DNA of 14,094 nucleotides from Bordetella parapertussis (lineage in GTDB: Bacteria; Pseudomonadota; Gammaproteobacteria; Burkholderiales; Burkholderiaceae_C), in NCBI GenBank assembly GCA_945882755.1, contig CAMCWS010000141.1:1-14094 (forward strand), in the 5' to 3' direction. Made by a program: the position numbers and the translations under genes. The stretch's first letter is position 1; each line of letters opens with the position of its first letter. A model generated the notes under the pieces. It did no database searches and was not told the origin of the DNA. It saw nothing but the letters and a program-made list of their open reading frames with translations. Below are positions 1-14,094 of this stretch, in pieces.

Positions 1-21
1 CCATTTCCCGACTTCACACAG

Positions 22-522: not shown

Positions 523-570
523 CAAATTCTCCAATCAAAGTCAACAGCCCTCAAAGGGGCAAAATGTTTT

Positions 571-903: not shown

Positions 904-984
904 CAACCTATTCTAGTGGATACCAACTTATTCTGTTCATATTGAGTGCCTATCACTCACGATTGAATTCTTAAACTTAATTAA

Positions 985-1017: not shown

Positions 1018-1033
1018 CTGGATTCATCGCTGC

Positions 1034-1384: not shown

Positions 1385-1399
1385 GGATGTTCCTTTGAA

Positions 1400-2185: not shown

Positions 2186-2240
2186 AACGACCCTTTTGAA
2201 ATCAATAAACAGACGGCAAATTGCTCATCTGGACTCAAGA

Positions 2241-2609
2241 TCAAGCGGGCAATTGCGGGGGTCTGAATGGAGCCTCGATAAGGGCAGAAGCAGGTTGTTC
2301 AATTCGAGGCAAATGAACTCTGCTAACTTTTAAGAGAGGTGTCGATAAGTTGTTATCAACCAGCACCGCGATATTTTGAACATAATCAACCGTATGTTGA
2401 TGAACCATATTGACGTCGTCATGATCGATATGTAATGAAAATGAGTCATGGTGATGATGGTCAATGGCAACTTGGTGGGTCGTCATCACATGCAAGTTAT
2501 CTGCGAAATTGATCAGGCTGCCAAACAGACTGATGGCAAATAAATTCAAGCACAAAAGCAACGAAAAGATCGCTCGGGTTATTCTGATCATCGCTAATTG
2601 TAAATTCAT
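2241..2609 (-). CDS. Small His-rich exported or anchored protein
   Basis: A 122-residue protein not assignable to a named family. A hydrophobic segment at residues 9-33 could be a signal peptide or a membrane anchor. A His/Asp-rich stretch follows (DHHHHDSFSLHIDHDD at about 50-65, then HQH), and the C-terminal part ends PFRPPQLPA. The layout (anchor, His cluster, Pro-rich end) resembles the small metal-sensing or buffering proteins found with cation efflux systems, like the Cys/His-rich protein encoded at 571-903. The ATG at 2609 is preceded by GGGAG with 7 bases of spacing. It lies 22 bases after the DMT gene and 55 bases before the HupE gene, all on one strand, so co-expression is very likely. 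A periplasmic zinc, nickel or cobalt binder is the simplest guess. Confidence 0.6.
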   Translation of the reverse strand: MNLQLAMIRITRAIFSLLLCLNLFAISLFGSLINFADNLHVMTTHQVAIDHHHHDSFSLHIDHDDVNMVHQHTVDYVQNIAVLVDNNLSTPLLKVSRVHLPRIEQPASALIEAPFRPPQLPA

Positions 2610-2631
2610 CCAATACTCCCTGGCACGATAG

Positions 2632-3678
2632 TCAATGGGAATGCTGATGATGAATGTCAGGGTAATGAGGATGCTTGTGTTTCAGTGCTGTATGCCTGTG
2701 CCAGTGAACATGGTTGTCGCTGAACACTTCGCCATCAGAATGATCATGTTGATGGTGCTCATCATGTGAGTGTGCATGTGAATGCTCAAGCACTTCGTGA
2801 GTATGTTCATGCTCATGAGCTTCTGAGATGTGCAACCAAACCCCCAGTCCCATTAGCACTGAAGCTAACCAAAAAGCAGTACTGGCACTTTCACCCATAA
2901 ACACCAATGCCACCGCTGAACCAATGAATGGCGCTGTAGAAAAGTAAGCACCTGTCCTGGCAGTACCCAGTCCTCTCAGTGCCAAGACAAACAACACCAG
3001 ACTTATGCCATAACCACACAAACCCAGCGTCATTGCGACCACAGTTGTGTGGATTTCTGGGAATTGCATGCCCATCAATAAAGCGATGGTGCAATTCACA
3101 ATACCAGCCAATAAACCTTTGGTGCTGGCTATGAACACTGGGTCTGAGGCGGATACCTTTCGTGTCAAATTGTTGTCTATTGCCCAGCATGTGCAAGCCA
3201 AGGCAATGGCTGACAAGCCCAACAATGAAGAACCACTTTCTTTCGTGTCTGGTTGAAATGTAAGCACAACACCACCCAATACGATAGCCAGCATTCCCAA
3301 AACGATACGCTTGTCTGCGTTTTCTTTGAAGACTACCCAAGCAATGACAGCTGTTAAGACCGATTCCAAGTTCAGCATTAAAGAAGCTGTTGATCCCGAG
3401 GTGCTAATCAAGCCATACATCAACGCAACTGGACCCACCACTCCCCCGAAGAATATGGCACCTGCGAGCCATTTCCATTCGCCTGCCTGCATGCCAGAGA
3501 TTTGCCATGATTTGTCGCGCACGAGTCTATAAACACTCAAACCGACGCCGCTCCCCAAGTAGAGCAAGCCGCCCAGCATCACAGGCGGGACGTCGCCAAT
3601 CAGTAGCTTGGCAAGTGGTGTACTGGCACCAAATAAGAATGCTGCCAATAATGCAAATACAACACCAGAATGGTTCAT
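2632..3678 (-). CDS. DMT/EamA family permease with His-rich C-terminal tail
   Basis: A 348-residue protein with ten predicted helices in two EamA repeats (about 1-140 and 150-283), including FLFGASTPLAK near the N-terminus and STSGSTASLMLNLESVLTA in the first repeat. The last 66 residues (283-348) carry about 24 histidines in HxH patterns, unusual for a plain drug/metabolite transporter and typical of cytoplasmic metal-binding tails. It opens the minus-strand operon (His-rich protein, HupE-like permease, DUF6488-like protein follow), which supports transport of a metal or metal chelate. The ATG at 3678 has only a weak upstream GAGAA. The 60 bases upstream are AT-rich with an 8-bp palindrome ATCATGAT near 3719 and probably hold the operon promoter. 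Confidence 0.85.
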   Translation of the reverse strand: MNHSGVVFALLAAFLFGASTPLAKLLIGDVPPVMLGGLLYLGSGVGLSVYRLVRDKSWQISGMQAGEWKWLAGAIFFGGVVGPVALMYGLISTSGSTASLMLNLESVLTAVIAWVVFKENADKRIVLGMLAIVLGGVVLTFQPDTKESGSSLLGLSAIALACTCWAIDNNLTRKVSASDPVFIASTKGLLAGIVNCTIALLMGMQFPEIHTTVVAMTLGLCGYGISLVLFVLALRGLGTARTGAYFSTAPFIGSAVALVFMGESASTAFWLASVLMGLGVWLHISEAHEHEHTHEVLEHSHAHSHDEHHQHDHSDGEVFSDNHVHWHRHTALKHKHPHYPDIHHQHSH

Positions 3679-3745
3679 CTGAAGATTCTCAATGCCTAAC
3701 GGTTTTTATCGAAATAACCATCATGATAATGAAATAGGTACAGCT

Positions 3746-3945
3746 AATGTCCTTCAAAAGGACAACCTGAAATCTGCTGACCAACTGTCGTTTTTCACGA
3801 CACCTCCCTTTCACCCCTTCGACGGTGCTCACCCTACCCACAACGGCGCGACAAGCGAACTGTGACTGACCCTAGCAATTCTTCTATTGTGATGCTGGGG
3901 TGTCGATTGACCCGACACTGCTTAACCGAGCCGTCGCTGGACGCT
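3746..3945 (+). repeat. Composite intergenic repeat R1 (a1-a2-b1-b2-c, full copy)
   Basis: Fills most of the 342-base gap between the DMT gene and nhaA. The parts in order are: a1 hairpin at 3748-3764 (TGTCCTT-CAA-AAGGACA); a linker resembling CTTGAAACCTGCTGACC; a2 hairpin at 3785-3803 (GTCGT/ACGAC core); the b1 conserved block at about 3826-3898 (contains TGACTGACCCTAGCAATTC); b2 hairpin at 3900-3918 (GTGTCG/CGACAC); and c at 3923-3945 (CGTC-GCTG-GACG). Every module recurs elsewhere in the window in the same orientation. A further shared stretch, TTAGTGCTGTTAGCA at about 3978-3992, matches one after R3. No open reading frame here looks coding. Confidence 0.85.
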
Positions 3946-4020
3946 GTCACCAAGCTATTTGAACAACGAAATTCAGATTAGTGCTGTTAGCATGAGAGTG
4001 TAAATCTCCAGCTTTACCTC

Positions 4021-5203
4021 ATGCACATAGAACAATCACCTTTAACTCGCACCTTTAACCAGTTCTTCAATTCCGAGAAAACAAGCGGGATACTGATTCT
4101 TTTTTGCACATTGGTTTCAATGCCGATTGCCAACTCGATTTTTGGTGAGCAATATTTAAATTTTTGGCGCATTGAACTACTGGGCCTTAGCATTGAGCAC
4201 TGGGTCAATGATGGCTTGATGGCGGTGTTTTTTTTGTTCATCGGCTTAGAGTTAGAGCGAGCTCTACAGCGGAGAGCTATCAAACTTCAAAAAAGCCCTG
4301 CTGCCATTTTTCGCTGCAGTAGGCGGTATTGCCATTCCAGCTCTGATCCATTTTGTTCTGAATGCAGACACACCAACACAGATTGGCATGGGCATTCCCA
4401 TGGCGACAGACATCGCGTTTGCACTTGGCATTTTGGCTTTGCTGGGTAGCAGAGTGCCTGTTTCGCTGAAGATTTTCCTCACTGCACTGGCTGTGATTGA
4501 TGATCTTGGTGCAATTATTGTGATTGCGATTTTCTACACAGCTGATATTTCGGCTATGTATTTATTTACTGCAATGGGTGTCTTTGCATTAATGGTCGTG
4601 ATGAACCGTTTTCTGCGTGTGTTGAGCCTGATGCCTTATTTGCTTGGGGGTGCCATCATGTGGTACCTAATGTTGAAGTCAGGTGTTCACGCAACCATCG
4701 CAGGTGTGATGCTTGCCTTTGCCATTCCATATTCCAGCAAGCAAGATGATGAAGCTTCACCTTCTCACAAGTTAGAACATTTTCTGCACAAACCTGTGGC
4801 TTATCTGATATTGCCAATCTTTGCTCTTGCTAATACTGGCATCGTTTTTGAAGCCAATTGGGCTGAGAACCTCAGCACAGCAAACAGCCTCGGCATCTTG
4901 GCTGGCTTGGTCATTGGCAAGCCTCTGGGTATTGCCCTCGTCACTTTCGCTGTTGTCGTGCTTGGACTTTGCCAACTTCCAAATGATTTGAATTGGAAAC
5001 ACGTTCTAGGCGCAGGGCTATTGGCTGGTATTGGATTCACCATGTCGATCTTCATCACCAACCTCGCTTATGCTGGGAACAGTGAAATGATCACGGCATC
5101 CAAGATCGCCATATTGTTTGCTTCCTTAACTGCTGGCACTCTTGGATTTTTATGGCTGAGGTTTTTTTCTAACAATCACAAGACAGTTAGTGTTCATTCA
5201 TAA
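4021..5203 (+). pseudogene. nhaA: Na+/H+ antiporter NhaA, frameshifted
   Basis: NhaA exchanges one Na+ for two H+ across the inner membrane. The first 80 codons (4021-4260) read in one frame and end FLFIGLELER; the family motif continues in the next frame from 4259 as ELYSGELSNFKKALLPFFA, running to the stop at 5203. Together they give about 394 residues, close to the 388 of E. coli NhaA. Key residues are intact: MATDIAFALG (D133 equivalent), AVIDDLGAIIVIAIFYT (D163/D164) and IGKPLG (K300). The shift equals loss of 2 bases (or gain of 1) around GAGCGAGCTC at 4255-4264, easily explained by loss of an AG from GAGCGAGAGCTC. As written, translation ends at 4449 without the antiporter core. A true mutation or a base-calling error are both possible. 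Repeat copies R1 and R2 flank the gene. Confidence 0.85.
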
Positions 5204-5267
5204 ATGACCTTTAAAAGGACAACTTGAAACCTGCTGAGCAAGTATCGTTTTAAACGACACCTCTCCC
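5204..5267 (+). repeat. Composite repeat R2 (a1-a2 only)
   Basis: Partial copy filling the gap between the converging 3' ends of nhaA and the Trp-rich gene. a1 is at 5205-5221 (TGACCTT-TAA-AAGGACA, one mismatch in the stem). The linker CTTGAAACCTGCTGAGCA follows, then a2 at 5242-5260 with one mismatch. Modules b and c are absent: the Trp-rich gene starts where b1 would be expected. Confidence 0.8.
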
Positions 5268-5272
5268 ACCCA

Positions 5273-5494
5273 TCAAACCCAACCCTGCCGCCACACACTG
5301 TCGTCTTGCAGATCACGCCATGCAATCTCCTGCACTGCTTTGGAAAACACTGCTTCAATTTCAACCCTTTCAATAGGATCAGTCAGTTGCTCGGGTTCAA
5401 TCACCCGGCAGATCAAAAAATGTTTTTGCTTGGCTATGGGTTTGACCGCAGTCCACTTGGTCAGCAGCAGTTTTTTGGGGTTCAGCAGATTCAT
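5273..5494 (-). CDS. TIGR02450-family Trp-rich small protein
   Basis: A 73-residue protein beginning MNLLNPKKLLLTKWTAVKP and ending DDSVWRQGWV, with tryptophans at 14, 59, 68 and 72. The NPKKLLLxKWTAV start, the central IEAVFSK and the terminal WRxGW match the small Trp-rich proteins grouped as TIGR02450, known from proteobacteria and cyanobacteria, without established function. The length is typical and the protein appears intact, cytoplasmic and soluble. The start is chosen by homology; upstream there is only a weak GAGA. It is a single-gene unit, converging on nhaA and bracketed by repeat copies R2 (3' side) and R3 (5' side). Confidence 0.85.
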   Translation of the reverse strand: MNLLNPKKLLLTKWTAVKPIAKQKHFLICRVIEPEQLTDPIERVEIEAVFSKAVQEIAWRDLQDDSVWRQGWV

Positions 5495-5545
5495 GGGTAA
5501 CAGTTCTCATGGACAACAACATGTATGGTAGCTGTGCTCTTTCGT

Positions 5546-5704
5546 GATGACATAGTGTCGTGAGGAACGACACCTCAACCACCCTGTCCTCCGTCCTAAC
5601 CCTGCTCACTAGACATCGCAAGGTGACTGTGCTTGACCCTAGCAATTATTTAATGGTTATGCTGAGGTGCCTTGTTAAGCAATATTTCATCAGTGTTGTT
5701 AGCA
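5546..5704 (+). repeat. Composite repeat R3 (a2-b1, degenerate b2, shared tail)
   Basis: Begins with GATGACATAGTGTCGT, a variant shared with R6. The a2 hairpin at 5555-5573 has perfect GTGTCGT/ACGACAC arms but loop GAGGA, close to the reverse complement of the usual TTCTC. b1 follows at about 5586-5667 (contains TTGACCCTAGCAATTATTTA); b2 has decayed (GAGGTGCCTTGTTAAG) and c is missing. A tail ATCAGTGTTGTTAGCA at 5688-5703 matches the one after R1. It occupies most of the 263-base gap between the Trp-rich gene and the exported-protein gene, upstream of the former and downstream of the latter. Confidence 0.8.
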
Positions 5705-5748
5705 GGTGTTGAGCCCGTGTTTGATTTCATCATTACGGGCTCAACACC
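5705..5748 (-). terminator. Long hairpin after the exported-protein gene
   Basis: A perfect 13-bp inverted repeat (5705-5717 with 5736-5748) encloses an 18-base AT-rich loop, 9 bases beyond the stop of the minus-strand gene at 5758. No U-run follows on the minus strand, so it may be a stabilising 3' hairpin rather than a classical terminator. It directly joins the shared tail of R3. Confidence 0.5.
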
Positions 5749-5757
5749 ATCAATAGA

Positions 5758-6237
5758 TCACTTTGAGACAGAACACTTAGTTATAGTTGAAAGATGAATC
5801 GTACTGTTCAAGGTCTGCCTAACATTGACAAACGTACATGTACCCTTTACGCTTTCATACTTGCCAGTTAAGCCAACAACTTTAGTAGTGCCATTGAATC
5901 CTTGTGGTGTAGTTTCACCCCGAACGAAATTAACACGAACTTTATCCCCATCTGAGTCCGTACTCAAACAAGTACCACTTCCCTCAATTTTTGAATTTTC
6001 GACAGTCCCTATTCCAAGACACTGCATAACACTAATCGCACCTACCTTATAAAAAGATACAGTTGAATTAAGTATTCTTCCTGTATAGATTGTGTTTGTA
6101 ATTGAATATTTATTATTTCCGAAATCATTTGTAGTAACTGAAAGTGTTCCACTGCTTATAGCTTCATATGTTCCTGATTCAGCACAAGCAAGACCCACAG
6201 TGCAAGCGGCAATAACAGTCAAGATAAGTTTTTTCAT
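5758..6237 (-). CDS. Exported protein of unknown function with four cysteines
   Basis: A 159-residue protein that I do not recognise. A classical signal peptide spans residues 1-19 (MKKLILTVIAACTVGLACA, cleavage before ESGTYE). The mature part is rich in Ser, Thr, Gly and Val, suggesting a beta-strand fold, with four cysteines (73, 90, 134, 155) that could form two disulfides in the periplasm. Motifs include GSGTCLSTDSDGDKV (86-100) and GLTGKYESVKGTC (122-134), reminiscent of small beta-barrel proteins with a repeated GxGxY/C pattern. The ATG at 6237 is chosen because GGAG lies 8 bases upstream and the signal peptide starts there. Single-gene unit between R3 and R4. Its base composition looks more AT-rich than its neighbours. 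Confidence 0.65.
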   Translation of the reverse strand: MKKLILTVIAACTVGLACAESGTYEAISSGTLSVTTNDFGNNKYSITNTIYTGRILNSTVSFYKVGAISVMQCLGIGTVENSKIEGSGTCLSTDSDGDKVRVNFVRGETTPQGFNGTTKVVGLTGKYESVKGTCTFVNVRQTLNSTIHLSTITKCSVSK

Positions 6238-6426
6238 TTGATAACTCCAAGTTGTTGATATTTCAAAATGAAACACCAAACTCGTTCTACAACGCAACCT
6301 TAAAAATAGATATAGCGATTGCAAACTATCTTGTAGGTGTTTGCCTTTCCTTATTTGTCACAATGCAATGGTCAAGCGGCGAGATTGAGGATAAGTTAGT
6401 GTCCACTGGTAGTGATTGGCGCCTGT
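6238..6426. other. Non-coding spacer with promoter region of the exported-protein gene
   Basis: About 190 bases without a plausible gene. The part next to 6237 is AT-rich and probably holds the minus-strand promoter; I could not single out convincing -35 and -10 boxes. The rest shows no repeat copy until R4 starts at about 6427. Confidence 0.4.
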
Positions 6427-6677
6427 AAGCTAACCGTGTCGTTACCGAACGATGCAGTAGATGACTTTCAAAAGGACATCTTGAAACCTACTGATCAAGT
6501 GTTGTTTCTCACGACTCCTCACGACACCTCTCACCACCCCATCAACTGTGAACCACCCTGCACAAACGGCGTCGCAAATTCACTGTGAGCGACCCTTGGA
6601 ATTGTTGAGGCTTATGCGGAGGTGTCGGTTGAACCCGACATTTGTTCAACAGAGACGCTGCTGGACGCTCAATAAGT
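6427..6677 (+). repeat. Composite repeat R4 (c-a1-a2-b1-b2-c)
   Basis: Starts with a degenerate c (TAACCGTGTCGTTACCGAAC from 6431). Then come a1 at 6462-6478, a2 at 6499-6527 enlarged by a small duplication (CTCACGAC TC CTCACGAC), b1 at about 6544-6621, b2 at 6622-6640 (TGTCGG/CCGACA arms around a TTGAAC loop) and a second c at about 6645-6671. It ends in TGGACGCTCAATAA (6662-6675), which is also found at R7 and, inverted, at R8. With the preceding spacer it explains the 487-base gene-free stretch 6238-6724. Confidence 0.85.
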
Positions 6678-6724
6678 TTCTAATTCAAAACACTAATTTG
6701 TGGATTTATGTAAATGGCATTCAG

Positions 6725-7357
6725 CTAAACAGGTTTTCCAGCAATTTGTAGAGCAGACAATAAAAAAGCAATTGCAAACAGCCATGCAGCTAGGACTCGC
6801 AGTACAGTTCGTTGCCAAAATTTCTGGAATCTTTCAAAGGCAAAATTGAACAACAAAGCAGAATACAAAAAACCCAAAAAGCATCCAGCTATTGAACCCA
6901 TTGTGGTGACCGTAAAGGACCAAAAAGGACCCGGGTCGGGAACATTCATTTGGCCCATAACCAAACCCAAAGAGATCACAGAAAGTGTTGCCACTTTCGG
7001 CGTCCACTTAGGTAGCAAAGCCGCATGGATGCATACAAAAACAATCAAAGCCCATAAAGCGATGAATAGCTTTCGTGGCTCAAAAACCAATGGCGACAGA
7101 AGTGCAAATGCAGTGCTTGCAATGATGGTGACTAAAAAAACCCAAAATAGTTTTTTGATCTTTTCTAGATCGACTGTTTGACTAACCAACAGCCCCAAGG
7201 CCAAGAAGGCCATCACGAGAGCCGCCTCGGTAAAAATATGTATTACGCCAGTGTAGAAACCGATGAGCCCCTTGCTTGGACTGTGAGCAAAGGCGATGGA
7301 CGGCGAGATTAACCAAAGAAACGCCAGCCTTGGAAGCCATGTCGGCACGTTTTTCAA
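6725..7357 (-). CDS. Membrane protein, degenerate HupE/UreJ-like partner
   Basis: About 210 residues if translation starts at the TTG at 7357, 5 bases after the stop of the HupE gene; a GTG at 7348 is the alternative and no good ATG exists. The N-terminus is signal-like, ending SIAFAHSPSKG, as in HupE proteins. About six helices follow. The first block (GFYTGVIHIFTEAALVMAFL) resembles the HupE motif around HPxxGxDH, but the Asp-His pair is replaced by other residues, so it looks like a diverged paralogue or a second permease subunit. Near the end of the protein, FWSFTVTTMGSIAGCFLGFLY is another conserved-looking helix. Tight spacing to the upstream hupE-like gene suggests translational coupling and a joint complex. 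Whether this is a known family I cannot say. Confidence 0.65.
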   Translation of the reverse strand: MKNVPTWLPRLAFLWLISPSIAFAHSPSKGLIGFYTGVIHIFTEAALVMAFLALGLLVSQTVDLEKIKKLFWVFLVTIIASTAFALLSPLVFEPRKLFIALWALIVFVCIHAALLPKWTPKVATLSVISLGLVMGQMNVPDPGPFWSFTVTTMGSIAGCFLGFLYSALLFNFAFERFQKFWQRTVLRVLAAWLFAIAFLLSALQIAGKPV

Positions 7358-7362
7358 CTTGC

Positions 7363-7956
7363 TTAAGCCATAAAGATACTTGACATGAATCCCACGCCAG
7401 CAATAGCAATAAAAGCACCCAAGCCTCTGACAATTTTTACGCCCCAACTCCAACGGACCAAATAGCCAACAGCAATTCCTGATAAATGCATCAGACCAGT
7501 TCCCAAAACAAATCCACCTGCATAGGCAAAAGGATTAGCAGCATCAGGTAACTCCGTTCCATGTGCATGACCGTGGAAGATGGCAAAAACAGCTACCAAT
7601 ACTGCAGCCGCCCAAAGCGGTAGACGAATTGCAGCGGCAATACAAGCACCCAGAACAATGGCTGATGCGGCAATGAACGCTTCAACTTGCGGCAACTCAA
7701 CACCCAAAACACCTAAAGCTCCACCCACTGCCATGACCACAGGGAAAACCACAGGCAATAACCATAATGCTGATATTCCAAGAAATGCACCCCACAAGCC
7801 CACAGCCACCATGGCTGCCACGTGATCCCAGCCGAATATGGGGTGGGTGAAGCCACTGATAAATCCACCTGCAATGCCTTGCTCTGAATGTGCCAATGCC
7901 AACGTAGGCATCCATAGCAGCAAAGCAATAAAGGCTTTGAGATCTATTTGTTTCAC
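7363..7956 (-). CDS. HupE/UreJ family nickel/cobalt permease
   Basis: A 197-residue protein with the full family signature: signal-like N-terminus ending LALAHSEQG (cleavage about residue 22), HPIFGWDH at 38-45, FHGHAHGTE at 127-135 and GFVLGTGLMHLSG at 148-160, spread over about six helices. HupE/UreJ proteins are secondary transporters proposed to bring nickel or cobalt into the cytoplasm, and the His/Asp residues in these motifs are the expected metal ligands. The start is GTG at 7956, the only one that keeps the signal segment; the ribosome binding site is weak (AAGA). It is followed after 5 bases by the second membrane-protein gene and is divergent from the cupredoxin-fold gene. It is clearly distinct from the longer HupE-type protein at 1400-2185. 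Confidence 0.9.
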   Translation of the reverse strand: MKQIDLKAFIALLLWMPTLALAHSEQGIAGGFISGFTHPIFGWDHVAAMVAVGLWGAFLGISALWLLPVVFPVVMAVGGALGVLGVELPQVEAFIAASAIVLGACIAAAIRLPLWAAAVLVAVFAIFHGHAHGTELPDAANPFAYAGGFVLGTGLMHLSGIAVGYLVRWSWGVKIVRGLGAFIAIAGVGFMSSIFMA

Positions 7957-8151
7957 TCTTGATCTTTCACATGTGATTGGGGTGAGGCATGATTTTGCCC
8001 GACTTTGATCACCACGTCAGACTTATCGTTTATGGGATAGTCCCTTAGAACTTCTCCGTCCTTTGCAAAATGGATAAACTATTCGATGGATTATTTGGTT
8101 TTTCTGAATCAGCAAAGCACTCAATTCAGAATCTATGTAAGCAGCTATCTT
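7957..8151. promoter_or_regulatory. Divergent promoter region with two inverted repeats
   Basis: Spacer between the hupE-like operon (minus) and the cupredoxin-fold gene (plus). It contains a perfect 10-bp palindrome TCACATGTGA at 7967-7976, 10 bases from the GTG start of hupE, and an inverted repeat TTCTGAAT/ATTCAGAA (8102-8109 with 8124-8131, 14-base spacer) upstream of the plus-strand gene. Either could be a regulator site. No NikR-type GTATGA-N16-TCATAC box was found. Core promoter boxes are not obvious. Confidence 0.35.
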
Positions 8152-8610
8152 ATGAAGTCTATGAAAAATTCACTTGTCAGTATTCTGTTGATCAGCAGTC
8201 TATTTATTTTCACCAATAAGATTCTGGCTGCCGACCTGACGCAACAAGAGCCAACACTCATCAACTTGAAAATTGGTACGCCTGATGGACAACATAAATT
8301 TAGTCCAGACGCTATTACCTTGGAGACAGGCAAGCTGTATAAATTGCGCCTCGAAAATACTGGCGTGCAACCCTACTACTTTTCATCACCAAGTCTTGTA
8401 GATGCCGTTTACACAAGAAAAGTTGTTGTCAAGGATTCCGATGAAAAAGTGATTGCAGAAATATATGGTCCAGTGCGTCGCTTTGAAATTGCATCAGGCA
8501 AACATATTGAGTGGTGGATTTATCCTGTGAGAACTGGCATTTTTGATGATGTGATCTCTACAAAAAAACTTGCTTTAGATGGGATGAGAGCAACAATAAC
8601 AGTCAAGTAA
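8152..8610 (+). CDS. Exported cupredoxin-fold protein lacking copper ligands
   Basis: About 152 residues from the ATG at 8152 (8161 is an alternative; both have weak ribosome binding sites). Signal peptide MKNSLVSILLISSLFIF...ILAA, then a beta-rich domain of the cupredoxin type: FSPDAITLETGKLYKLRLENTG, a middle IYGPVRRFEIASGKHIEWW, and a terminal YPVRTGIFD plus MRATITVK. In copper-binding relatives ENTG is followed by a His (PHEF), and a Cys and His sit before the last strand; here these positions read QPYYFSS and VISTKKLALDG, with no Cys in the mature protein. It therefore probably does not hold a type-1 copper. It is divergent from the hupE-like operon and may be a periplasmic accessory protein of that transport system (inference). 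Confidence 0.7.
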   Translation: MKSMKNSLVSILLISSLFIFTNKILAADLTQQEPTLINLKIGTPDGQHKFSPDAITLETGKLYKLRLENTGVQPYYFSSPSLVDAVYTRKVVVKDSDEKVIAEIYGPVRRFEIASGKHIEWWIYPVRTGIFDDVISTKKLALDGMRATITVK

Positions 8611-8635
8611 AAACAGGCTTGGCAAAAATTCAAGC

Positions 8636-8812
8636 TTGTGCGGTGTTCAAACTGCCGCATCCATAAACCGAGCCGTAACTGGACGCAGCCTCGACACTGC
8701 CGGACCTCTGCCGCGTGTTCAACACTGCTGCTCAAGAGAGGGTTGAACCGACATCAATCAACCGGACCGTTGCTGGACGATGGGCAAGTGTCGTGAGAAA
8801 CGATACGCCAGC
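8636..8812 (+). repeat. Composite repeat R5 (c - partial b2 - c - a2)
   Basis: Contains two c modules (about 8663-8688 and 8757-8781), the first reading AACCGAGCCGTAACTGGACG, a partial b2 (GGGTTGAACCGACA at 8750-8753 onward), and an a2 hairpin at 8788-8806 whose loop GAGAA is the exact reverse complement of the usual TTCTC. GTGTTCAA followed by CTGC occurs twice (8643 and 8715 regions), suggesting a tandem duplication of c with its left flank. It lies between the convergent cupredoxin-fold and MGMT-like genes. A weak stem AGGCTTG/CAAGCTT at 8615-8637 follows the cupredoxin stop. Confidence 0.75.
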
Positions 8813-8872
8813 ACCCACTGACTTCTATTACCCTAACTACACAGAATCTCAAGTTTGCTGAGATAAGCAATG

Positions 8873-9289
8873 CTAACTATTTTGCTTCTCAAGATCCTGT
8901 TGTAAGTCAATCCATGCAGCGTCAAAATTCAATTTTTTAGCCATGGGTGAACTTGACTCAACCACCCTCCAAAACGGTGCGAGACCTTTTGTGCTGCCAG
9001 TTCGACTGAACTCCTCCCAAGTGTGCTCGGCAACGATTCTGAGAAAGAGAGATGTTGACACTGGACAGGCGGCATCACAGTTGTTTTTCTCCGCCAGTTT
9101 GCGCCGAAAAGCTTGAATGGAGATGATGGTTCCTGGCGTGATGTTCTTGAGTTCAGCAGCAACTTCTACTGGACAAGAAATGTGGAGCTTTGATCCTTTT
9201 GGTACTCCTGCAAAGTCCTTGTCCAAGATGACATAGTGAGGCGGTTTTGCCTGCATCTTTTCAGTCCATGTTTTCTTTGCTCTTGGCAA
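8873..9289 (-). CDS. MGMT-like (alkyltransferase DNA-binding domain-like) protein
   Basis: A 138-residue protein resembling those annotated as MGMT family: a PRAKKTWTEKM start, a middle segment with ITPGTIISIQAFRRKLAEK (winged-helix-like, 50-68), ACPVSTSLFLRIVAEHTWEE (74-93) and APFWRVV (104-110), the counterpart of the PxxRVV region of O6-methylguanine-DNA methyltransferases. The PCHRV cysteine of true methyltransferases is absent, so direct alkyl transfer is unlikely; DNA binding or an alkyltransferase-like role is a guess. The start is TTG at 9289, supported by GGAG 6 bases upstream; the next Met is 11 codons in. The stop is TAG at 8873. Single-gene unit between R5 and R6. Confidence 0.7.
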   Translation of the reverse strand: MPRAKKTWTEKMQAKPPHYVILDKDFAGVPKGSKLHISCPVEVAAELKNITPGTIISIQAFRRKLAEKNNCDAACPVSTSLFLRIVAEHTWEEFSRTGSTKGLAPFWRVVESSSPMAKKLNFDAAWIDLQQDLEKQNS

Positions 9290-9319
9290 TGCTGACTCCG
9301 TTGGTTTGGTTCAGTTAAG

Positions 9320-9735
9320 TATCAGGGCTCAATTCTTTAGTGCAGTTAATCCCCGGGAAAACACCGATCTAATCCCTTTGCTGGACGCTGACCAACTGTC
9401 GTTTCTCACGACATTAATCACTGGCAAAACACCCGTAAAGCTCGCCTCAAATCCCCCTCCTCCGCGTCACACCCTGCTCACACGGCGTCGCAGGTTCACT
9501 TTGACTGACCCAGCTAGTTCTTTAGGCTGATGCTGCAGTGCGGGTTGAACCAACTGAAATCAATCTAACCGAGTCGTTGCGCATCCCTCAAACTGCTTGA
9601 CCTCTGCTTGATGTCCTTCAAAAGGTCAACTTGAAACCTGATGACATAGTGTCGTTTCTCACGACACCTAAACCATCCCTCCTTCGTATCGCACACTAGC
9701 CCACATGGCATCGCAAGTGAGATGTGATAGTTCCT
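9320..9735 (+). repeat. Composite repeat R6 (c-a2-d-b1-b2-c-a1-a2-b1), longest copy
   Basis: Accounts for the 508-base gap between the MGMT-like and antitoxin genes. In order: degenerate b1-like sequence from about 9325; c ending CTTTGCTGGACGCTG (9377-9390); a2 at 9396-9414; element d at 9422-9457; b1 from about 9461 (TCACACCCTGCTCACACGGC); b2 remnant CGGGTTGAACC near 9541; c at 9565-9585; a1 at 9612-9628; a2 at 9649-9667 (perfect arms); and a truncated b1 to about 9735. Two repeat units thus lie head to tail here without a gene between them. Shadow reading frames in both strands do not look coding. Confidence 0.8.
9422..9457 (+). repeat. Element d, first copy of a 36-base perfect direct repeat
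   Basis: These 36 bases (starting TGGCAAAACACCCG, ending CAAATCCCCC) recur exactly at 11819-11854, directly upstream of the tRNA-Met promoter. In both places d follows an a2 hairpin at the same distance. Here b1 follows; at the second site the tRNA promoter follows, so the tRNA flank is probably the original location. Confidence 0.85.
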
Positions 9736-9744
9736 TAAATTCAT

Positions 9745-9791
9745 TTGCCTTGCCCAAGCTTTCAAAATATACTTGTATAGCAAAATAGGAG
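9745..9791 (+). promoter_or_regulatory. Promoter, operator and RBS of the toxin-antitoxin operon
   Basis: A -35 box TTGCCT (9745-9750) and a -10 box TATACT (9768-9773) are separated by 17 bases. A perfect inverted repeat TATAC-TT-GTATA (9768-9779) overlaps the -10 box, the expected position of an operator for a ribbon-helix-helix antitoxin. The ribosome binding site AGGAG is at 9787-9791, 6 bases before the chosen ATG. Confidence 0.65.
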
Positions 9792-9797
9792 ATGTGC

Positions 9798-10022
9798 ATG
9801 TTAGCCCTGAGACTTCCTGAAGACATTGAGTCCCGTCTTGACAAGTTAGCCAAGGCAACTGGGCGCACCAAGAGTTTTTACGCCCGTGAGGCAATTCTTG
9901 AGCATTTGGCTGATCTGGAAGATCTTTACCTCGCAGAAAAACGACTTGCCAAAGTTCGCAATGGCAAAACCAAAACATACACCTTGAGTGCGGTGGAGCA
10001 AGAGCTTGGCTTGGCAAATTGA
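9798..10022 (+). CDS. RelB/StbD-like ribbon-helix-helix antitoxin
   Basis: A 74-residue protein starting MLALRLPEDIESRLDKLAKATGR. Residues 2-7 form the DNA-contacting strand and the next 40 the two helices of a ribbon-helix-helix dimer (TKSFYAREAILEHL). The C-terminal part (LAEKRLAKVRNG...YTLSAVEQELGLAN) is the expected toxin-binding segment. Antitoxins of this kind neutralise a RelE/ParE toxin and repress their own operon. The ATG at 9798 is preferred because AGGAG ends 6 bases before it; an ATG at 9792 abuts that site. The toxin reading frame overlaps its last 17 bases. Since the toxin is truncated here, the antitoxin may persist as a free repressor or as an antidote to related toxins. Confidence 0.85.
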   Translation: MLALRLPEDIESRLDKLAKATGRTKSFYAREAILEHLADLEDLYLAEKRLAKVRNGKTKTYTLSAVEQELGLAN

Positions 10023-10278
10023 GATTGATCAAGCCGCCAAGAAAGAGCTTGGCAAACTTGACCCTCAAGTAGCCCGCAGAGTCATACAGTTTCTAAGAAC
10101 CAGACTGCAAAGCCTGAAAGATCCACGCAGCGTGGGTCAAGCCCTGAAAGGCTCTGAGCTTGGTGACTTCTGGAAATACCGATTGGGTGACATCAGAATC
10201 ATTGCCAGCATAGAAGATGATTGATTGGTGATCTTGGTTTTGAGGGTAGGCAATCGCAAGGAAATATATAGGCGCTGA
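10006..10278 (+). pseudogene. RelE/ParE-family toxin with in-frame premature stop
   Basis: From the TTG at 10006 (GGAG 8 bases upstream; a GTG at 9988 is the alternative) the protein begins AWQIEIDQAAKKELGKLDPQ, matching RelE-type toxins, which cut mRNA on the ribosome. It runs through ALKGSELGDFWKYRLGDIRIIASIEDD and meets TGA at 10222-10224 after 72 residues. The same frame then continues LVILVLRVGNRKEIYRR to a stop at 10276-10278, precisely the normal C-terminus of this family (about 90 residues). The lost segment contains the Arg and Tyr equivalent to catalytic R81 and Y87 of E. coli RelE, so the toxin is probably inactive. A single CGA-to-TGA change (Arg to stop) explains it. Overlap with the antitoxin gene is normal for such operons. 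Confidence 0.85.
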
Positions 10279-10350
10279 CTTGTAGGTTTGACTTCGTCGT
10301 GGAATACTTCCATTAAAGCTAACCAGCAACTAGGGCCAATCAACTTCAGC

Positions 10351-10416
10351 CCCTGATGTTGAAGTGTCGGGTTGAACCGACACTTTTTAATCGTCCCGTC
10401 GCTGGACGCTCAATAA
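10351..10416 (+). repeat. Composite repeat R7 (end of b1 - b2 - c)
   Basis: The end of b1 (CCCTGATGTTGAAGTG) leads to the b2 hairpin at 10364-10383 and to c at 10387-10410 (CGTCCCGTCGCTGGACGC). It ends in TGGACGCTCAATAA (10403-10416), which appears inverted at 11708-11723 on the other side of the tetR unit. It lies between the toxin remnant and the convergent tetR gene. Confidence 0.8.
10364..10388 (+). terminator. Possible terminator formed by b2 of R7
   Basis: GTGTCGG and CCGACAC arms (extendable to nine pairs with one bulged G) are followed at once by five T residues (10384-10388). On the plus strand this fits a rho-independent terminator for the toxin-antitoxin operon. It would be a repeat module reused as a terminator. 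Confidence 0.55.
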
Positions 10417-10441
10417 TTTATTTCCATTTGTTTTGTTTTGA

Positions 10442-11071
10442 CTATTTGTTTTTTAATGCTAATGCTTCGAACATTTGACCGATTTGTTTTGTCAGCATTT
10501 CTATCAATTTGCTTTGAGGCAAAGGGATCTTCTTGATGCCGCCATCTATCAAAAGCCCTGACAAGCCATGAACCGCTGACCAAGCATGAAGAACTAATGG
10601 CAGTGGATCACCTTTAGGGGCTTGACCTGACTTTTGACATTCAGCTATCGCTTGACTAAGAATTTCAAATGCTTTGTTCCCTGAAGTGGTTAACTCAGGG
10701 TCATCTGAGTTATGTGTGTCTACCCTGAACATTGTTCTAAAGTGACCAGGGTGTGAAACAGCAAAACTTACATAGGCTTTGCCGATGGCATTCAACTTGG
10801 CTATGGAATCTTTTCGTCCAGAATCTCTTCCATGCAGCATATTCGCCTCAAGAAGATCAAAACCTTCTTTGGCAATCTCCGTAAAAATTTCTTGCCTATC
10901 TACAAAGTGGTGGTACGGGGCTCCTGGGGAAACTCCCGCAACCTTGGCTACTTCTCTGAGATTAAGTGAGTCAACGCCAGTCGTTCCAATAATTTCAATA
11001 CTTGCATCCATCAGTGCTCTTCGCAGATCGCCATGATGGTAAGTTTTTTTAGAAGTTTTTTTGGAAACCAA
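10442..11071 (-). CDS. TetR/AcrR family repressor with WHG-type C-terminal domain
   Basis: A 209-residue protein with a typical TetR N-terminus: YHHGDLRRALMDASIEII, then the helix-turn-helix NLREVAKVAGVSPGAPYHHF (37-56). The C-terminal ligand domain contains AWSAVHGLSGLLIDGG, the WHG-type signature. The start is TTG at 11071, supported by AGGTGG 8 bases upstream; no Met follows until residue 21. It lies 69 bases downstream of the DUF2141 gene on the same strand, with no terminator visible between them, so the two are probably one operon. Two near-identical palindromes in the promoter of that operon (11611-11629 and 11656-11674) have the size and symmetry of TetR operators, suggesting autorepression. 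The ligand is unknown. Confidence 0.9.
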   Translation of the reverse strand: MVSKKTSKKTYHHGDLRRALMDASIEIIGTTGVDSLNLREVAKVAGVSPGAPYHHFVDRQEIFTEIAKEGFDLLEANMLHGRDSGRKDSIAKLNAIGKAYVSFAVSHPGHFRTMFRVDTHNSDDPELTTSGNKAFEILSQAIAECQKSGQAPKGDPLPLVLHAWSAVHGLSGLLIDGGIKKIPLPQSKLIEMLTKQIGQMFEALALKNK

Positions 11072-11140
11072 TTAGTTGTCCACCTAGAGATTGAGGAAGA
11101 ACTTCAATCGTAACCAAAAATATGTTTGATTGCTTTCAAG

Positions 11141-11590
11141 TCAATATCCCATGCGAATCTTTATATTCTTATCGACTTCCCCATTCACTTGGAATGATGA
11201 CTCTTTGAATTCAGGCGCAGACATCATGTGACGAATATTGTTTGACACGCCGTATCCTTCCAATGGCATACCGACAAAGTTTTTGTCTAATTTTTTATTG
11301 TCATTTTCATCGTGGAAAACACTCACAGCATAAGTGCCAGCAGCGATATCCTTGAATTCACAACTGGCAACTCCTGAATTTATTGACACATATACGTATT
11401 GAAAAGATTTCGCTTGTACATCTGGAAAACCATCAGCGACATTGAATAAAGCACAAGCCATCATGCCTGTCGGATTCTTAATTTTGTCAACATCAACTTG
11501 GATAGTTGTTTTTATAGATTGTGCTTGACTACCCAAAGCAGCAATGCTCAAGGTTGCAAAGACAGCAATTTGATATGCGGTTGTTTTCAT
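11141..11590 (-). CDS. DUF2141 exported protein
   Basis: A 149-residue protein with a signal peptide (1-23, cleavage near SQAQS) and a DUF2141 domain: TIQVDVDKIKNPTGMMACALF, then SCEFKDIAAGTYAVSVFHDENDNKKLDKN and MPLEGYGVSNN, the family's most conserved part. Members are small periplasmic or outer-membrane-associated beta-rich proteins without firm function. FHDENDNKKLD looks like an acidic loop able to bind Ca2+ or another metal, as an inference. AGGAG sits 5 bases before the ATG at 11590. It is the first gene of the operon with tetR, and its promoter overlaps a TetR-type operator, so expression is likely induced by the unknown TetR ligand. Confidence 0.9.
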   Translation of the reverse strand: MKTTAYQIAVFATLSIAALGSQAQSIKTTIQVDVDKIKNPTGMMACALFNVADGFPDVQAKSFQYVYVSINSGVASCEFKDIAAGTYAVSVFHDENDNKKLDKNFVGMPLEGYGVSNNIRHMMSAPEFKESSFQVNGEVDKNIKIRMGY

Positions 11591-11610
11591 GAGAGCTCCT
11601 TAAATTGTTA

Positions 11611-11674
11611 ATCTAAGCAAAGTTTAGATCAAGGAAGCTTGTGATGTCAACGAAAATCTAAACAATGTTTAGAT
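11611..11674 (-). promoter_or_regulatory. Promoter with twin TetR-type operators
   Basis: On the minus strand, a -35 box TTGACA (11650-11645) and a -10 box TAAACT (11626-11621) are 18 bases apart. Operator 1 (11611-11629, ATCTAAGCAAAGTTTAGAT on the plus strand) covers the -10 box. Operator 2 (11656-11674, ATCTAAACAATGTTTAGAT) lies just upstream of the -35 box. Both are 19-base inverted repeats with arms ATCTAARC/GTTTAGAT and 3-base centres, 45 bases apart centre to centre. Confidence 0.75.
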
Positions 11675-11707
11675 ATAACTAAAAATCATTCCAATTAAAG
11701 GGGCGCT

Positions 11708-11854
11708 TTATTGAGAGCGTCCATTAACCGTCCCGTAGCTAGACGATCAAGCAAATGTCTTTCAAAAGGACAACTTGAACCCTGCTGACCAAGTGTCGTT
11801 TCTCACGACACCCAACAATGGCAAAACACCCGTAAAGCTCGCCTCAAATCCCCC
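11708..11854 (+). repeat. Composite repeat R8 (inverted c-end, c-a1-a2-d)
   Basis: Starts with TTATTGAGAGCGTCCA (11708-11723), an inverted version of the c-end found at R7 and R4, which with bases 11701-11707 also forms a 7-pair hairpin. Then c (11724-11746, CGTCCCGTAGCTAGACG), a1 (11756-11772, GU-tolerant stem), a2 (11793-11811, perfect arms) and element d (11819-11854), which ends 13 bases before the tRNA -10 box. With the tetR operators it explains the 292-base gap before the tRNA. Confidence 0.8.
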
Positions 11855-11867
11855 AACAGAGTCTCGC

Positions 11868-11873
11868 TATAAT
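11868..11873 (+). promoter_or_regulatory. -10 box of the tRNA-Met promoter
   Basis: A consensus TATAAT lies 9 bases before the first tRNA base. At the matching -35 distance (about 11845-11850) the sequence CAAATC of element d is a poor match, so the -35 is weak or was altered when the repeat array reached this flank. Confidence 0.6.
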
Positions 11874-11882
11874 TTGCGGCTC

Positions 11883-11959
11883 GGCGCTTTAGCTCAGTCG
11901 GTTAGAGCGATGGAATCATAATCCACAGGTCCGCGGTTCGAATCCGTGAAGCGCCACCA
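11883..11959 (+). tRNA. tRNA-Met (anticodon CAU), elongator type
   Basis: A 77-base gene with encoded CCA. The acceptor stem GGCGCTT/AAGCGCC is perfect, as is the D-stem GCTC/GAGC. The anticodon loop ATCATAA gives anticodon CAT at 11917-11919. The T-arm is CGCGG-TTCGAAT-CCGTG, with discriminator A. The first pair of the anticodon stem (27-43) is an A-C mismatch. A full acceptor pairing from position 1 and the GGAATCATAATCC loop region point to elongator Met; the lysidine-modified Ile2 tRNA with the same anticodon is the alternative. Confidence 0.92.
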
Positions 11960-11979
11960 CCAAATACCCTTATAGATCA

Positions 11980-12010
11980 AGCGCTTAGGAGCAATCCTAG
12001 GTGCTTTTTT
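11980..12010 (+). terminator. Rho-independent terminator of tRNA-Met
   Basis: An 11-pair stem (AGCGCTTAGGA with TCCTAGGTGCT, two GU pairs) and loop GCAA are followed by six T residues (12005-12010), 20 bases after the tRNA. Confidence 0.8.
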
Positions 12011-12155
12011 CTTGCAGATTTTTATTGCACAACTGCAAAATGTGTATGCAAATTCTTGGCATCATAAATTAGCGTTGAATCGTGACACTGACTTGAAGCG
12101 ATAGCATCCAAAAACCCGCGCATTGCATTTACTAATCCCTTTTAAAAGATTCGAA

Positions 12156-12650
12156 ATGGTTTCTCACAAACTAAACATCCTATTTGTATGCATGGGCAAC
12201 ATTTGTCGAAGTCCTACTGCAGAAGGCGTATTCAAAGCAAAACTGCAAAATAGCAAACTGTTGGAAACAATCTATGTTGACTCAGCAGGTACGCACAACT
12301 ACCACCCCAACTCTCCACCTGATTCGCGCAGTCAACTACATGCCTTGAAACGTGGATACGACCTCTCCAACCTAAGGGCGCGGGCTGTCAATGAAGATGA
12401 TTTTGAAAACTTTGACCTGCTGATCGCCATGGATTGGGACAACCGCGCCTTACTTGAGCAACGTTGTCCTTCTCACTTACACCACAAAATACGTGGCTTT
12501 GCAGAATTTCTAAAAACATCCGAAGCTACTGTGATTCCTGACCCCTACTATGGTGACGAACAGCATTTTGAACACGTTCTTGATTTGGTTGAGGAAGCTT
12601 CAGAGGGATTGATGGAATTTGTGTTCAAGAAAGTGCAAGGCCATGACTAA
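12156..12650 (+). CDS. Low-molecular-weight protein-tyrosine phosphatase
   Basis: A 164-residue cytoplasmic enzyme that removes phosphate from tyrosine residues through a cysteinyl-phosphate intermediate. The P-loop FVCMGNICRSPTAEG carries nucleophile C12 and R18, the acid/base loop is DPYYG (D129), and VDSAGT and AMDWDN are also conserved. The length is usual for the family. The ATG at 12156 is chosen because the family starts a few residues before ILFVC; an upstream ATG at 12123 would add an unrelated 11-residue lead. The last 8 bases overlap the DUF2237 gene, so the two are co-translated. This type resembles the stand-alone betaproteobacterial phosphatases rather than the Wzb-type of capsule operons, since no capsule genes are near. 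Confidence 0.93.
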   Translation: MVSHKLNILFVCMGNICRSPTAEGVFKAKLQNSKLLETIYVDSAGTHNYHPNSPPDSRSQLHALKRGYDLSNLRARAVNEDDFENFDLLIAMDWDNRALLEQRCPSHLHHKIRGFAEFLKTSEATVIPDPYYGDEQHFEHVLDLVEEASEGLMEFVFKKVQGHD

Positions 12651-13005
12651 ACAAGACCTCAACGTACTGGGTACTGAATTAATTCCATGCTCTTATGACC
12701 CGCTGACCGGATTTTTCAGAGATGGCTGCTGCAAGACTGACAGTGAGGACCATGGAAGTCATGTCATTTGCGCCCGCATCACGCAGGATTTTTTAGATTT
12801 CACCCTCAAGCAGGGTAACGACTTGCTGACACCACGACCAGAATACAGATTCAAAGGACTCAATCATGGCGACAAGTGGTGCTTGTGCGCCTTGCGCTGG
12901 AAAGAGGCTTACAAAGCTGGTGTGGCACCGCCTGTGATTTTGGAAAGCACACACCAGAAGGCGCTTCAATTTGTCACGCTGGAGCAACTTCAATCAAGGC
13001 GCTGA
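12643..13005 (+). CDS. DUF2237 family protein
   Basis: A 120-residue protein matching DUF2237 nearly end to end: NVLGTELIPCSYDPLTGFFR (7-26), DGCCKTDSEDHGSHVICAR (27-45), GNDLLTPRPEY (58-68), GDKWCLCALRWKEAYKAG (76-93) and PPVILESTHQKAL (97-108). Six conserved cysteines (16, 29, 30, 43, 80, 82) suggest a bound metal or redox role; the function of the family is not established. The ATG at 12643 lies inside the last codons of the phosphatase gene, giving an 8-base overlap typical of translational coupling. It converges with the VOC gene, leaving 4 bases between stops. Confidence 0.92.
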   Translation: MTKQDLNVLGTELIPCSYDPLTGFFRDGCCKTDSEDHGSHVICARITQDFLDFTLKQGNDLLTPRPEYRFKGLNHGDKWCLCALRWKEAYKAGVAPPVILESTHQKALQFVTLEQLQSRR

Positions 13006-13009
13006 ATTT

Positions 13010-13384
13010 TCAATCTAAACTTTCAAGAGGGCTGAAATTGAGCTCTACCTTGGCGCCACTGGGGTCTTCGCAAAAAATCTGCCATGGCCCATTGGGTCGG
13101 TGCTGCAACCTATAGGGATATCCTGACAAATCGAAAACCGATTTAACGGCCTTCAAATCTTTTGCGGTGAAAGCCATGTGGTCAATAACGCCAGCAGGCG
13201 GGTTGGGAACAGGACGCTCAAAGTACAAATGAAGCACCGCAGTGTCGCCAGCATAAAGCCACGCACCAGGAAAACCCAAGCCGGGGCGCGGCCCAACTTT
13301 CAACCCAATGATGCGTTCATAAAAATCCAAAGTGGCCACTGGATCTTTGGCGATAGCTGTGAAATGGTTCATGCCAAGAATCAT
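13010..13384 (-). CDS. VOC-superfamily (glyoxalase/dioxygenase fold) protein
   Basis: A 124-residue single-module VOC protein: MILGMNHFTAIAKDPVATLDFYERIIGLKVGP at the start, LYAGDTAVLHLYF in the middle, GVIDHMAFTAKD, and DPSGAKVELNF at the end. His at about residue 7, His in VLHLYF, His in IDHMAF and Glu in KVELNF are in the metal-ligand positions of VOC enzymes such as glyoxalases and fosfomycin-resistance proteins, so a divalent-metal enzyme is likely, with unknown substrate. The ATG at 13384 is chosen because the fold begins at once; a longer frame to 13438 adds an unlikely lead. Divergent from the peroxiredoxin gene. Confidence 0.88.
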   Translation of the reverse strand: MILGMNHFTAIAKDPVATLDFYERIIGLKVGPRPGLGFPGAWLYAGDTAVLHLYFERPVPNPPAGVIDHMAFTAKDLKAVKSVFDLSGYPYRLQHRPNGPWQIFCEDPSGAKVELNFSPLESLD

Positions 13385-13492
13385 GTTCGCTGTATTTCCA
13401 TCTTGCTGCAGTTCACTGCTCTGACACCTATGTGCCACGTACTTTTCGCAATGCTAAGCGAAAATAGCCATGTCGACACCCAATGCCTAGAC

Positions 13493-14050: not shown

Positions 14051-14094
14051 AACTGAATCCTTAAAATTTGCGTTTTCGCTTATGTGTAAATGAA

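Follow-up and report, generated by a model that had tools for sequence, protein, structure and literature searches.

Accessory gene units between co-oriented repeats upstream of tRNA-Met: a putative cassette array with a repeat family of its own

How are accessory genes gathered, unit by unit, between copies of the same repeat? This question is raised by a 14,094-nt stretch of contig CAMCWS010000141.1 (hereafter the window), probably of metagenomic origin, in which a repeat-bearing block (3746..11854) ends at a tRNA-Met gene. Herein, we analyzed this block and its counterparts in related genomes. On balance, the locus is probably a hypervariable, additive gene-cassette array directly upstream of tRNA-Met that is shuffled by recombination between co-oriented repeats. 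Judged by its sequence, it appears to be a tRNA-anchored additive cassette array with a repeat family of its own. A preliminary description of this DNA had already compared it to a cassette array, and four observations support that comparison: the repeats are not scattered in relatives, gene content at this spot differs between species, one 3.7-kb difference has its break within a repeat, and the units recur in changed order with fixed orientation.

Repeat modules and their tRNA-Met anchor

Nine co-oriented repeat copies lie between 3747 and 11811 (Table 1), and the a1 pattern, allowing up to three mismatches, had 5 matches in the window compared with a mean of 0.00 over 200 shuffles, indicating that the co-oriented composite repeats noticed earlier are real. 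Module c is a GTGTCGG/CCGACAC hairpin followed by the core d, 24 nt long (YAACCGWSCCGTYRCTGGACGCTG), which forms the end of c. Module a2 is a GTGTCGT/ACGACAC hairpin, and a1, which has a hairpin of its own, adds ~39 nt between GGAC and GCTGA; directly after d there can be a2, a1, or a gene unit. The idea of a composite repeat unit held in part, since full copies exist, but modules also stand alone (c at 10361) or in other combinations, as in the stretch 8640–8806 with two c-type ends followed by a2. The a2 loop was found in both orientations, TTCTC and GAGAA (for example, at 8780–8806 and 9387–9413 of the window), with its neighbors unchanged, as if the hairpin could flip. RNAalifold of the repeat alignments gave local pairing only and no long dyad. 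A stem within d was also considered and rejected, as it was not retained in the AG variants of d.

With a threshold of at least 17 of 24 positions, d occurred in the window in nine forward copies, from 3923 to 11748, and in two reverse matches inside the block, and none was found in the flanks (1–3700 and 11883–14094), which agrees with the earlier statement that no copies were seen outside the block. The weaker minus-strand module matches in the window coincide with the palindromic a2 and c hairpins. Across ten array loci (at least 18/24), there were 35 forward and 3 reverse copies of d, and conservation dropped off on both sides; because this set was chosen by consensus, the height of conservation inside d is inflated, whereas the drop outside it is not. 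With at least 20/24, 26 matches were found in 103 kb of array loci versus 11 in the remaining loci (1.70 Mb), among which the array pieces L195–L198 were still counted. When the c model was applied to 12 array loci, 30 of 30 hits of at least 25 bits had one direction within their locus; 26 of them lie in eight loci with at least two hits, and the four single-hit loci are uninformative. Below 25 bits, 19 of 28 hits had the opposite strand; 16 of the 19 coincide with a forward hit and represent the hairpin read backwards. Copies from one genome were no closer to each other than to the copies of other genomes (identity within and between genomes, 0.695 vs 0.703 for b and 0.724 vs 0.731 for c).

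Genome-wide repeat counts were taken from related genomes, covering 84 species of one genus of uncultured Burkholderiales. The nearest genome loci belong to metagenome-assembled genomes (MAGs) of an uncultured Burkholderiales (L001) and a Comamonadaceae (L002), each with 87% amino acid (aa) identity in the low-molecular-weight (LMW) phosphatase, and the ten named loci placed in the genus (L001, L002, L003, L008, L010, L015, L017, L020, L025, and L026) are all from MAGs, the names of which suggest that the genus is probably lake-dwelling. One repeat of G001 used as a DNA query matched 13 of the 84 genomes at E <= 0.01; the b profile matched 8 at E <= 0.01 and the c model 13, under stricter filters and with the best 51 and 71 candidates per genome scored, respectively. 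Combining the searches with inspection of the loci, we counted nine array genomes (G001, G021, G029, G030, G060, G061, G071, G072, and G075). Not counted were G074 (E 0.007), G023 and G036 (hairpin part only, on both strands), G044, G046, G050, and G070 (weak single matches of the G001-repeat query), and G016 and G067 (weaker traces, located close to tRNA-Met or its fragment).

Matches of the b profile or c model at E <= 1e-5 formed one array per genome or lay on short contigs of 3.1–4.1 kb (G021, G030, and G075), which may belong to the array. No match of this strength lay outside array contigs among the 84 genomes, with a limited number of candidates scored, indicating that the repeats are not dispersed in relatives. 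Weaker extra places occurred in array genomes at G021:C320, G001:C62, and G072:C172, the last with two d copies and no tRNA gene. In a family-wide sample, 1 of 399 genomes matched, namely G001, the center genome itself (best 10 candidates per genome scored). Exact a1 patterns gave 0 matches in the viral_contigs and genome_contigs sets, because a1 is too diverged for an exact search, and megablast of window 3700–11990 against plasmids gave none. A de novo repeat search (at least 28 nt) in L162, L163, L166, L189, and L157 revealed no family of this kind; as L157 is the array locus of G072, diverged arrays escape this search, and little weight attaches to its negatives.

The array and tRNA-Met share a contig in seven loci (the window, G001, G029, G060, G061, G071, and G072). 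In all seven, the array was upstream of the same tRNA-Met, the repeats were directed towards the tRNA, and the gene content beside the conserved tRNA varied; the array contigs of G021, G030, and G075 carry no tRNA and are outside this count. The tRNA-Met at the array end had not been remarked on in the preliminary description. An Rfam gathering search of the window found the tRNA only, and the modules show no resemblance to it. The tRNA-Met locus was present in 44 of 84 genomes at E <= 1e-10, and 37 further stretches around it were examined. The c profile at 14 bits or more gave module hits in L162, L163, L181, and L189 and none in the others; the c model (E <= 1) gave 11 matches in six stretches, the best of 30.5 bits, several of which were one hairpin matched on both strands. 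Several contigs terminate shortly upstream of the tRNA, as expected for a variable locus.

Variation of the gene units between species

Species differ in their gene units at this spot. The window and G001 align at 11441–11772 (90.7%, the DUF2141 end) and at 11784–11986 (90.0%, the tRNA end) of the window, and between these ends G001 has an extra 3.7 kb with lipoprotein, GNAT, DUF2306, and CWC genes and a remnant. Both breaks of this difference lie within d-a1-a2, that is, inside the repeat. The remnant (L111:2662-2718) corresponds to a terminal 57-nt piece of the window gene at 8873–9289 with 93% nucleotide identity and is likely left from a cassette.

The order of units differs further among arrays. 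Along the repeat direction, the window has nhaA, the Trp-rich gene, expA, hupE with its neighbor, cupredoxin, the gene at 8873–9289, RelB/ParE, tetR-DUF2141, and the tRNA. In G029, the contigs C9 and C5 of which were treated as neighbors because both carry an identical 119-base end, the order is YdjM, MFS, cupredoxin, hupE with its neighbor, tetR-DUF2141, expA, a 98-aa gene, a second expA, others, ion channels, BLUF, RelB/ParE, and the tRNA. The series in G061 includes cupredoxin, expA, Sel1, a lipoprotein of lactonase-like type, a further lipoprotein, and the tRNA. For all ten gene families found in at least two arrays, orientation relative to the repeat is constant (lipoprotein, ParE, BLUF, expA with its two kinds taken as one, DUF2141, tetR, hupE, hupE neighbor, cupredoxin, and YdjM). 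Considering that tetR is linked to DUF2141 and hupE to its neighbor, these ten families amount to eight units. Antisense shadow open reading frames (ORFs) of RelB and an ion-channel relative (38–42%) downstream of the tRNA in G037 were excluded before counting. When the arrays were compared with loci that have no strong repeats but lie beside tRNA-Met or its 5' fragment, seven of nine families agreed in orientation (MFS, LysR, BLUF, a lipoprotein at 37%, and proteins of 134, 146, and 124 aa).

The breakpoints varied, lying after the end of d, after b, or at gene ends. Next to tetR-DUF2141, the sequences of three genomes are shared as far as d and diverge after it, into a1, a2, or a variant a2. 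Gene entry at the c/a junction, proposed earlier, was borne out for nhaA, hupE with its neighbor, and tetR, which follow c, but not for RelB/ParE and the exported gene, which follow b; nor is c/a the sole entry site, as the Trp-rich gene sits between a2 and a2. The idea that repeats travel fixed to their own gene was unsupported, as the b copies beside expA are only 66–68% identical across three species.

To judge transfer, the units were compared with core genes at the protein level; RND and one glyoxalase comparison (L163) were out of frame and left out. Relative to the window, the flanking redoxin had aa identities of 59% in G029, 68% in G001, 74% in G067, 91% in G060, 89% in G030, 88% in G021, and 87% in G061, with no match in G071, G072, G075, and G002. 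The LMW phosphatase matched in 4 of 11 genomes, at 87% in G001, G067, and G002 and at 57% in G071, where it is possibly not an orthologue. For array-adjoining genes, the protease was 67.5% identical between G001 and G029 (80 aa) and 65% between G001 and G071, and TMEM165 was 80% between G071 and G029. In comparison, the cassettes shared by the window and G029 were at 98% (tetR), 95% (DUF2141), 93% (hupE), 88% (hupE neighbor), and 89% (cupredoxin), and ParE was 91% identical between the window and G029, 96% between the window and G071, and 92% between G029 and G071. BLUF and YdjM were 95% and 96% identical between G029 and G030, and MFS 96% between G029 and G019. Overall, against G029 and G071, most units were 88–98% identical and core proteins 57–80%. 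Since most units are far more alike than the core genes in these comparisons, units seem to pass between species, and the identities suggest exchange of array units. In G029, the protease, which is diverged, and RelB/ParE, which is similar, are on one contig at a distance of ~6 kb, so that a binning error is unlikely there.

Explanations for the array

In the array, accessory units are separated by modular, non-coding repeats of one direction (the a1, a2, and c hairpins, the b block, and the d core). We propose that these direct repeats would act as short homologies for recombination, either of the RecA type or by annealing. Through unequal exchange, either inside one cell or with DNA from outside, units could then be gained, lost, and reordered but not inverted. 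Varied breakpoints are what repeat homology would give; together with the within-genome copies that are no more alike and the low identity of b near expA, they lead us to prefer recombination between repeats.

Several points weigh against this explanation. Recombination is deduced from species-level MAGs, several of which are broken at this locus, and copies ~70% alike over 25–100 nt are poor RecA substrates. The expA proteins are just 75–77% identical between species (77% between the window and G029). In comparisons with G061 and G060, the core (redoxin and glyoxalase, 84–91%) is as similar as the cassettes (cupredoxin 91%, expA 76%). As there is no core/cassette contrast towards these two genomes, transfer shows against G029 and G071 only. 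Two looser comparisons break the orientation rule, namely the 98-aa gene between G029 and G081 (49%) and a TetR-type pair (27%). Moreover, G019 and G067 have cassette families by tRNA-Met, where repeats are scarce or decayed. The preliminary description had named the same genes without repeats in relatives as evidence against its view, and this was found in part: three array gene families lie upstream of tRNA-Met in G019, where the modules are reduced to weak traces (E 0.078 for c; 12–16 bits for a2, b, and c, with a2 on the other strand), and G067 has other array gene families near tRNA-Met with few module traces.

The main rival that we keep beside repeat recombination is a dedicated non-integron system, which we consider rather unlikely. 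A recombinase encoded elsewhere would act on the directional d core, often preceded by a hairpin, and join units there, in a manner similar to integrons at attC. The array at tRNA-Met would then be built and traded across species of the genus by d and a putative recombinase, a further cassette system besides integrons and Xer/dif, which is just as doubtful. The sharp borders of d and its prevailing orientation in the ten loci fit such a system, as do the divergence directly after d beside tetR-DUF2141 and the GGACGCTG end, which continues differently into a1, a2, or genes. However, several units enter after b or by gene ends and not at d, the apparent conservation of d is inflated by the way its copies were picked, and no recombinase was detected among the array proteins in a Pfam scan that took in only part of the ORFs. 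Likewise, an integrase or transposase carrying the repeat ends, as considered in the preliminary description, was not seen among the array proteins scanned. Y1 transposase genes were present in 23 of 32 genomes and in 5 of 9 array genomes; their presence is not tied to arrays, and a Y1 transposase of the RAYT (REP-associated tyrosine transposase) type was rejected as the mobilizer.

Accretion is less probable still. Under this explanation, tyrosine-integrase elements would repeatedly insert at tRNA-Met with their cargo and then decay, leaving the repeats as end remnants. Islands flanked by tRNA genes are common, and in G029, G067, and G081 a 5' tRNA fragment (promoter plus nt 1–18) followed by a conserved TGCAAACG motif lies away from the intact gene (TGCAAACG..GTTTGCA; L150:11252-11292, L188:10068-10108, and L189:9769-9812). 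In G067, an integrase-like gene adjoins the junction (L189:10176-11471), and integrative elements seem to use this tRNA-Met. But the junction was found in only 3 of 84 genomes, just one of which (G029) has a strong array, the other 22 matches being the tRNA part alone; the repeats are unlike tRNA, and no integrase was seen in the arrays examined. The attL-like junction of G029 has no integrase among the ORFs scanned, and none was found in the other arrays, which are often cut by contig ends.

It is very improbable that the repeats are an ordinary family of repetitive extragenic palindromes (REP), bacterial interspersed mosaic elements (BIME), or miniature inverted-repeat transposable elements (MITE) merely lying between genes: their hairpins, non-coding nature, and modularity would fit, but under strict filters and with limited candidates none of the 84 genomes had a match at E <= 1e-5 outside array contigs, each locus has a single orientation, and one unit difference breaks inside the repeat.

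Least probable of all, and already largely contradicted, is a decayed integron or a CALIN (cluster of attC sites lacking integrase) whose attC sites are unusual, although the co-oriented sites, the mixed cargo including a toxin-antitoxin pair, the lack of a local integrase, and the YAAC start of d, which resembles the R'' box of attC, are in its favor. In 22 array stretches totaling 7663 bp, neither strand had a pair of R''/R' boxes with complementary arms (0 vs 0.01 expected for each strand). A control attC was detected in this search with a score of 13, the threshold being 10, and an unusual attC could escape its strict boxes. The pairing in the repeats is local only. The integron integrase family TIGR02249 exceeded its cut-off in 0 of 11 genomes (eight of the nine array genomes, without G030, plus G002–G004), the MAGs being incomplete and CALINs lacking an integrase by definition; Xer-like matches below the cut-off (up to 84 bits vs 265) occurred in these genomes as in 14 of 14 control genomes. 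Furthermore, genes lie in both directions, 23 with and 22 against the repeats in a hand-made list (n = 45).

Cargo genes and comparison with known systems

The Pfam scan comprised 18 window proteins and 20 proteins of relatives, a part of the array ORFs. The cargo included GNAT, DUF2306, CWC, BLUF, ion channels, glutamine amidotransferase, globin, lactonase-like, Sel1, cyclophilin, LysR, PF00144 hydrolase, nucleotidase, MFS, YdjM, HupE, TetR, DUF2141, DUF2389, NhaA, and RelB/ParE types, as well as an outer-membrane barrel and a cupredoxin with matches below cut-off. Two earlier gene labels changed: "MGMT-like" had no backing in Pfam or NCBIfam, and only one member of the "hupE pair" has the HupE family. 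The expA product had no Pfam or NCBIfam family over cut-off, one scan having used a protein two residues short. The split of nhaA into overlapping frames is a genuine change or an assembly error. The ParE-type toxin ORF of the window (9988–10224) encodes 78 aa, 18 fewer than the 96 aa in G029 and G071. Two ORFs adjoining the G072 array (L157:42-1129) resemble an IS3-type transposase by eye. The left flank of the window (22–3678) has the look of metal handling, with genes for DUF6803, for a protein of the HupE_UreJ_2 type, and for an EamA transporter that ends in a His-rich tail.

Table 1. Repeats, cargo genes, and tRNA in the window, with module starts from the profile search
Feature	Position	Strand	Content and basis
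R1, full composite	3747..3946	+	a1 3747-3780, a2 hairpin 3776-3803, b 3813-3904, c hairpin and d 3899-3946; d 24/24 at 3923
R2	5204..5274 (composite copy to 5260)	+	a1-a2, start of C-rich b edge; module profiles
R3	5546..5670	+	a2-b; module profiles
R4	6431..6670	+	d 6431-6454, a1, a2, b, c with d 6647-6670
R5	8640..8806	+	hairpin-d 8640-8688, c-d 8736-8782, a2 8780-8806
R6	9367..9589	+	d, a2 with tail resembling sequence upstream of tRNA, b, c
R7	9611..9745	+	a1-a2-b; module profiles
Lone c hairpin and d core	10361..10411	+	c model 66.5 bits
R8	11725..11811	+	d, a1, a2; site of the 3.7 kb extra in G001
a1 (nhmmer)	3747, 5204, 6461, 9611, 11755	+	module profile
a2 (nhmmer)	3776, 5233, 5546, 6491, 8780, 9387, 9640, 11784	+	module profile
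b (nhmmer)	3813, 5580, 6537, 9453, 9677	+	module profile
c (nhmmer)	3899, 6621, 8738, 9537, 10363; shorter c ends 6431, 8658, 11723	+	module profile
nhaA-like gene	4021..5203	+	two frames, 4021-4449 and 4388-5203; PF06965 in both
Trp-rich DUF2389/TIGR02450 gene	5273..5494	-	family match
expA, exported protein	5758..6237 (longest ORF 5758-6324)	-	homologues in G029, G061
hupE neighbor gene	ORF 6725-7453 (unit 6725..7956)	-	no Pfam family; 88% aa identity in G029
hupE gene	7363..7956	-	PF04955; 93% aa identity in G029
Cupredoxin-like exported protein	8161..8610 (longest ORF 8086-8610)	+	PF13473 below cut-off; homologues in G029, G061
Gene without family match (earlier "MGMT-like")	8873..9289	-	homologue in G021 (L199, 84% nt)
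RelB-type antitoxin and ParE-type toxin genes	9792..10224	+	family matches; ParE homologues in G029, G071
tetR and DUF2141 pair	10442..11590	-	98% and 95% aa identity in G029
tRNA-Met(CAT)	11883..11959	+	array end; anchor in the 7 loci whose array contig includes it

Among the matches listed in the open PMC literature, no description of this array was found, and the closest published pattern among them is that of the islands of freshwater 'Ca. Methylopumilus' (Methylophilaceae). These are additive islands preceded by repeats equal to the final 20 bp of tRNA-Lys; a further island is reported at tRNA-Met(cat) (PMC10872708). They resemble the present array in being additive, variable, placed beside a tRNA, and accompanied by recurring direct repeats. 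In contrast, the repeats here are not copies of a tRNA end but a hairpin family unlike tRNA, located upstream and between single units; the only tRNA-derived piece, the 5' fragment, lies elsewhere, in 3 of 84 genomes. Tycheposons and other tRNA-targeting elements, which the same source mentions, share the tRNA anchor and the cargo islands (PMC10872708), and an integrase-type junction exists at the same tRNA in 3 of 84 genomes; they differ in that no integrase was seen here, the array lies 5' of the intact tRNA, and its internal repeats are many.

The pdif (XerCD) modules of Acinetobacter are likewise exchanged and bounded by recombination sites, whereas no dif-like site was found at the repeats: a search for the 11-6-11 arrangement at the module borders of ten loci gave at best 15 of 22 arm positions. 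BOX elements of pneumococcus, too, are modular composites of short non-coding subunits, as the present repeats are, but are interspersed in the chromosome, whereas these are restricted to one array and co-oriented.

Integron arrays and CALINs share with this locus the co-oriented site-like repeats, the reordered accessory genes, the toxin-antitoxin cargo, and the likely interspecies transfer. They differ in that here no attC architecture and no integron integrase over cut-off were found, genes lie on both strands with at most three per unit, and the array is anchored at a tRNA. A gene-cassette array is usually equated with an integron; comparable behavior appears here with another repeat family and without the integron parts that were sought. 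With this locus and its repeat profile, it can be asked by what route accessory genes accumulate in uncultured bacteria, and whether repeats by themselves are enough.

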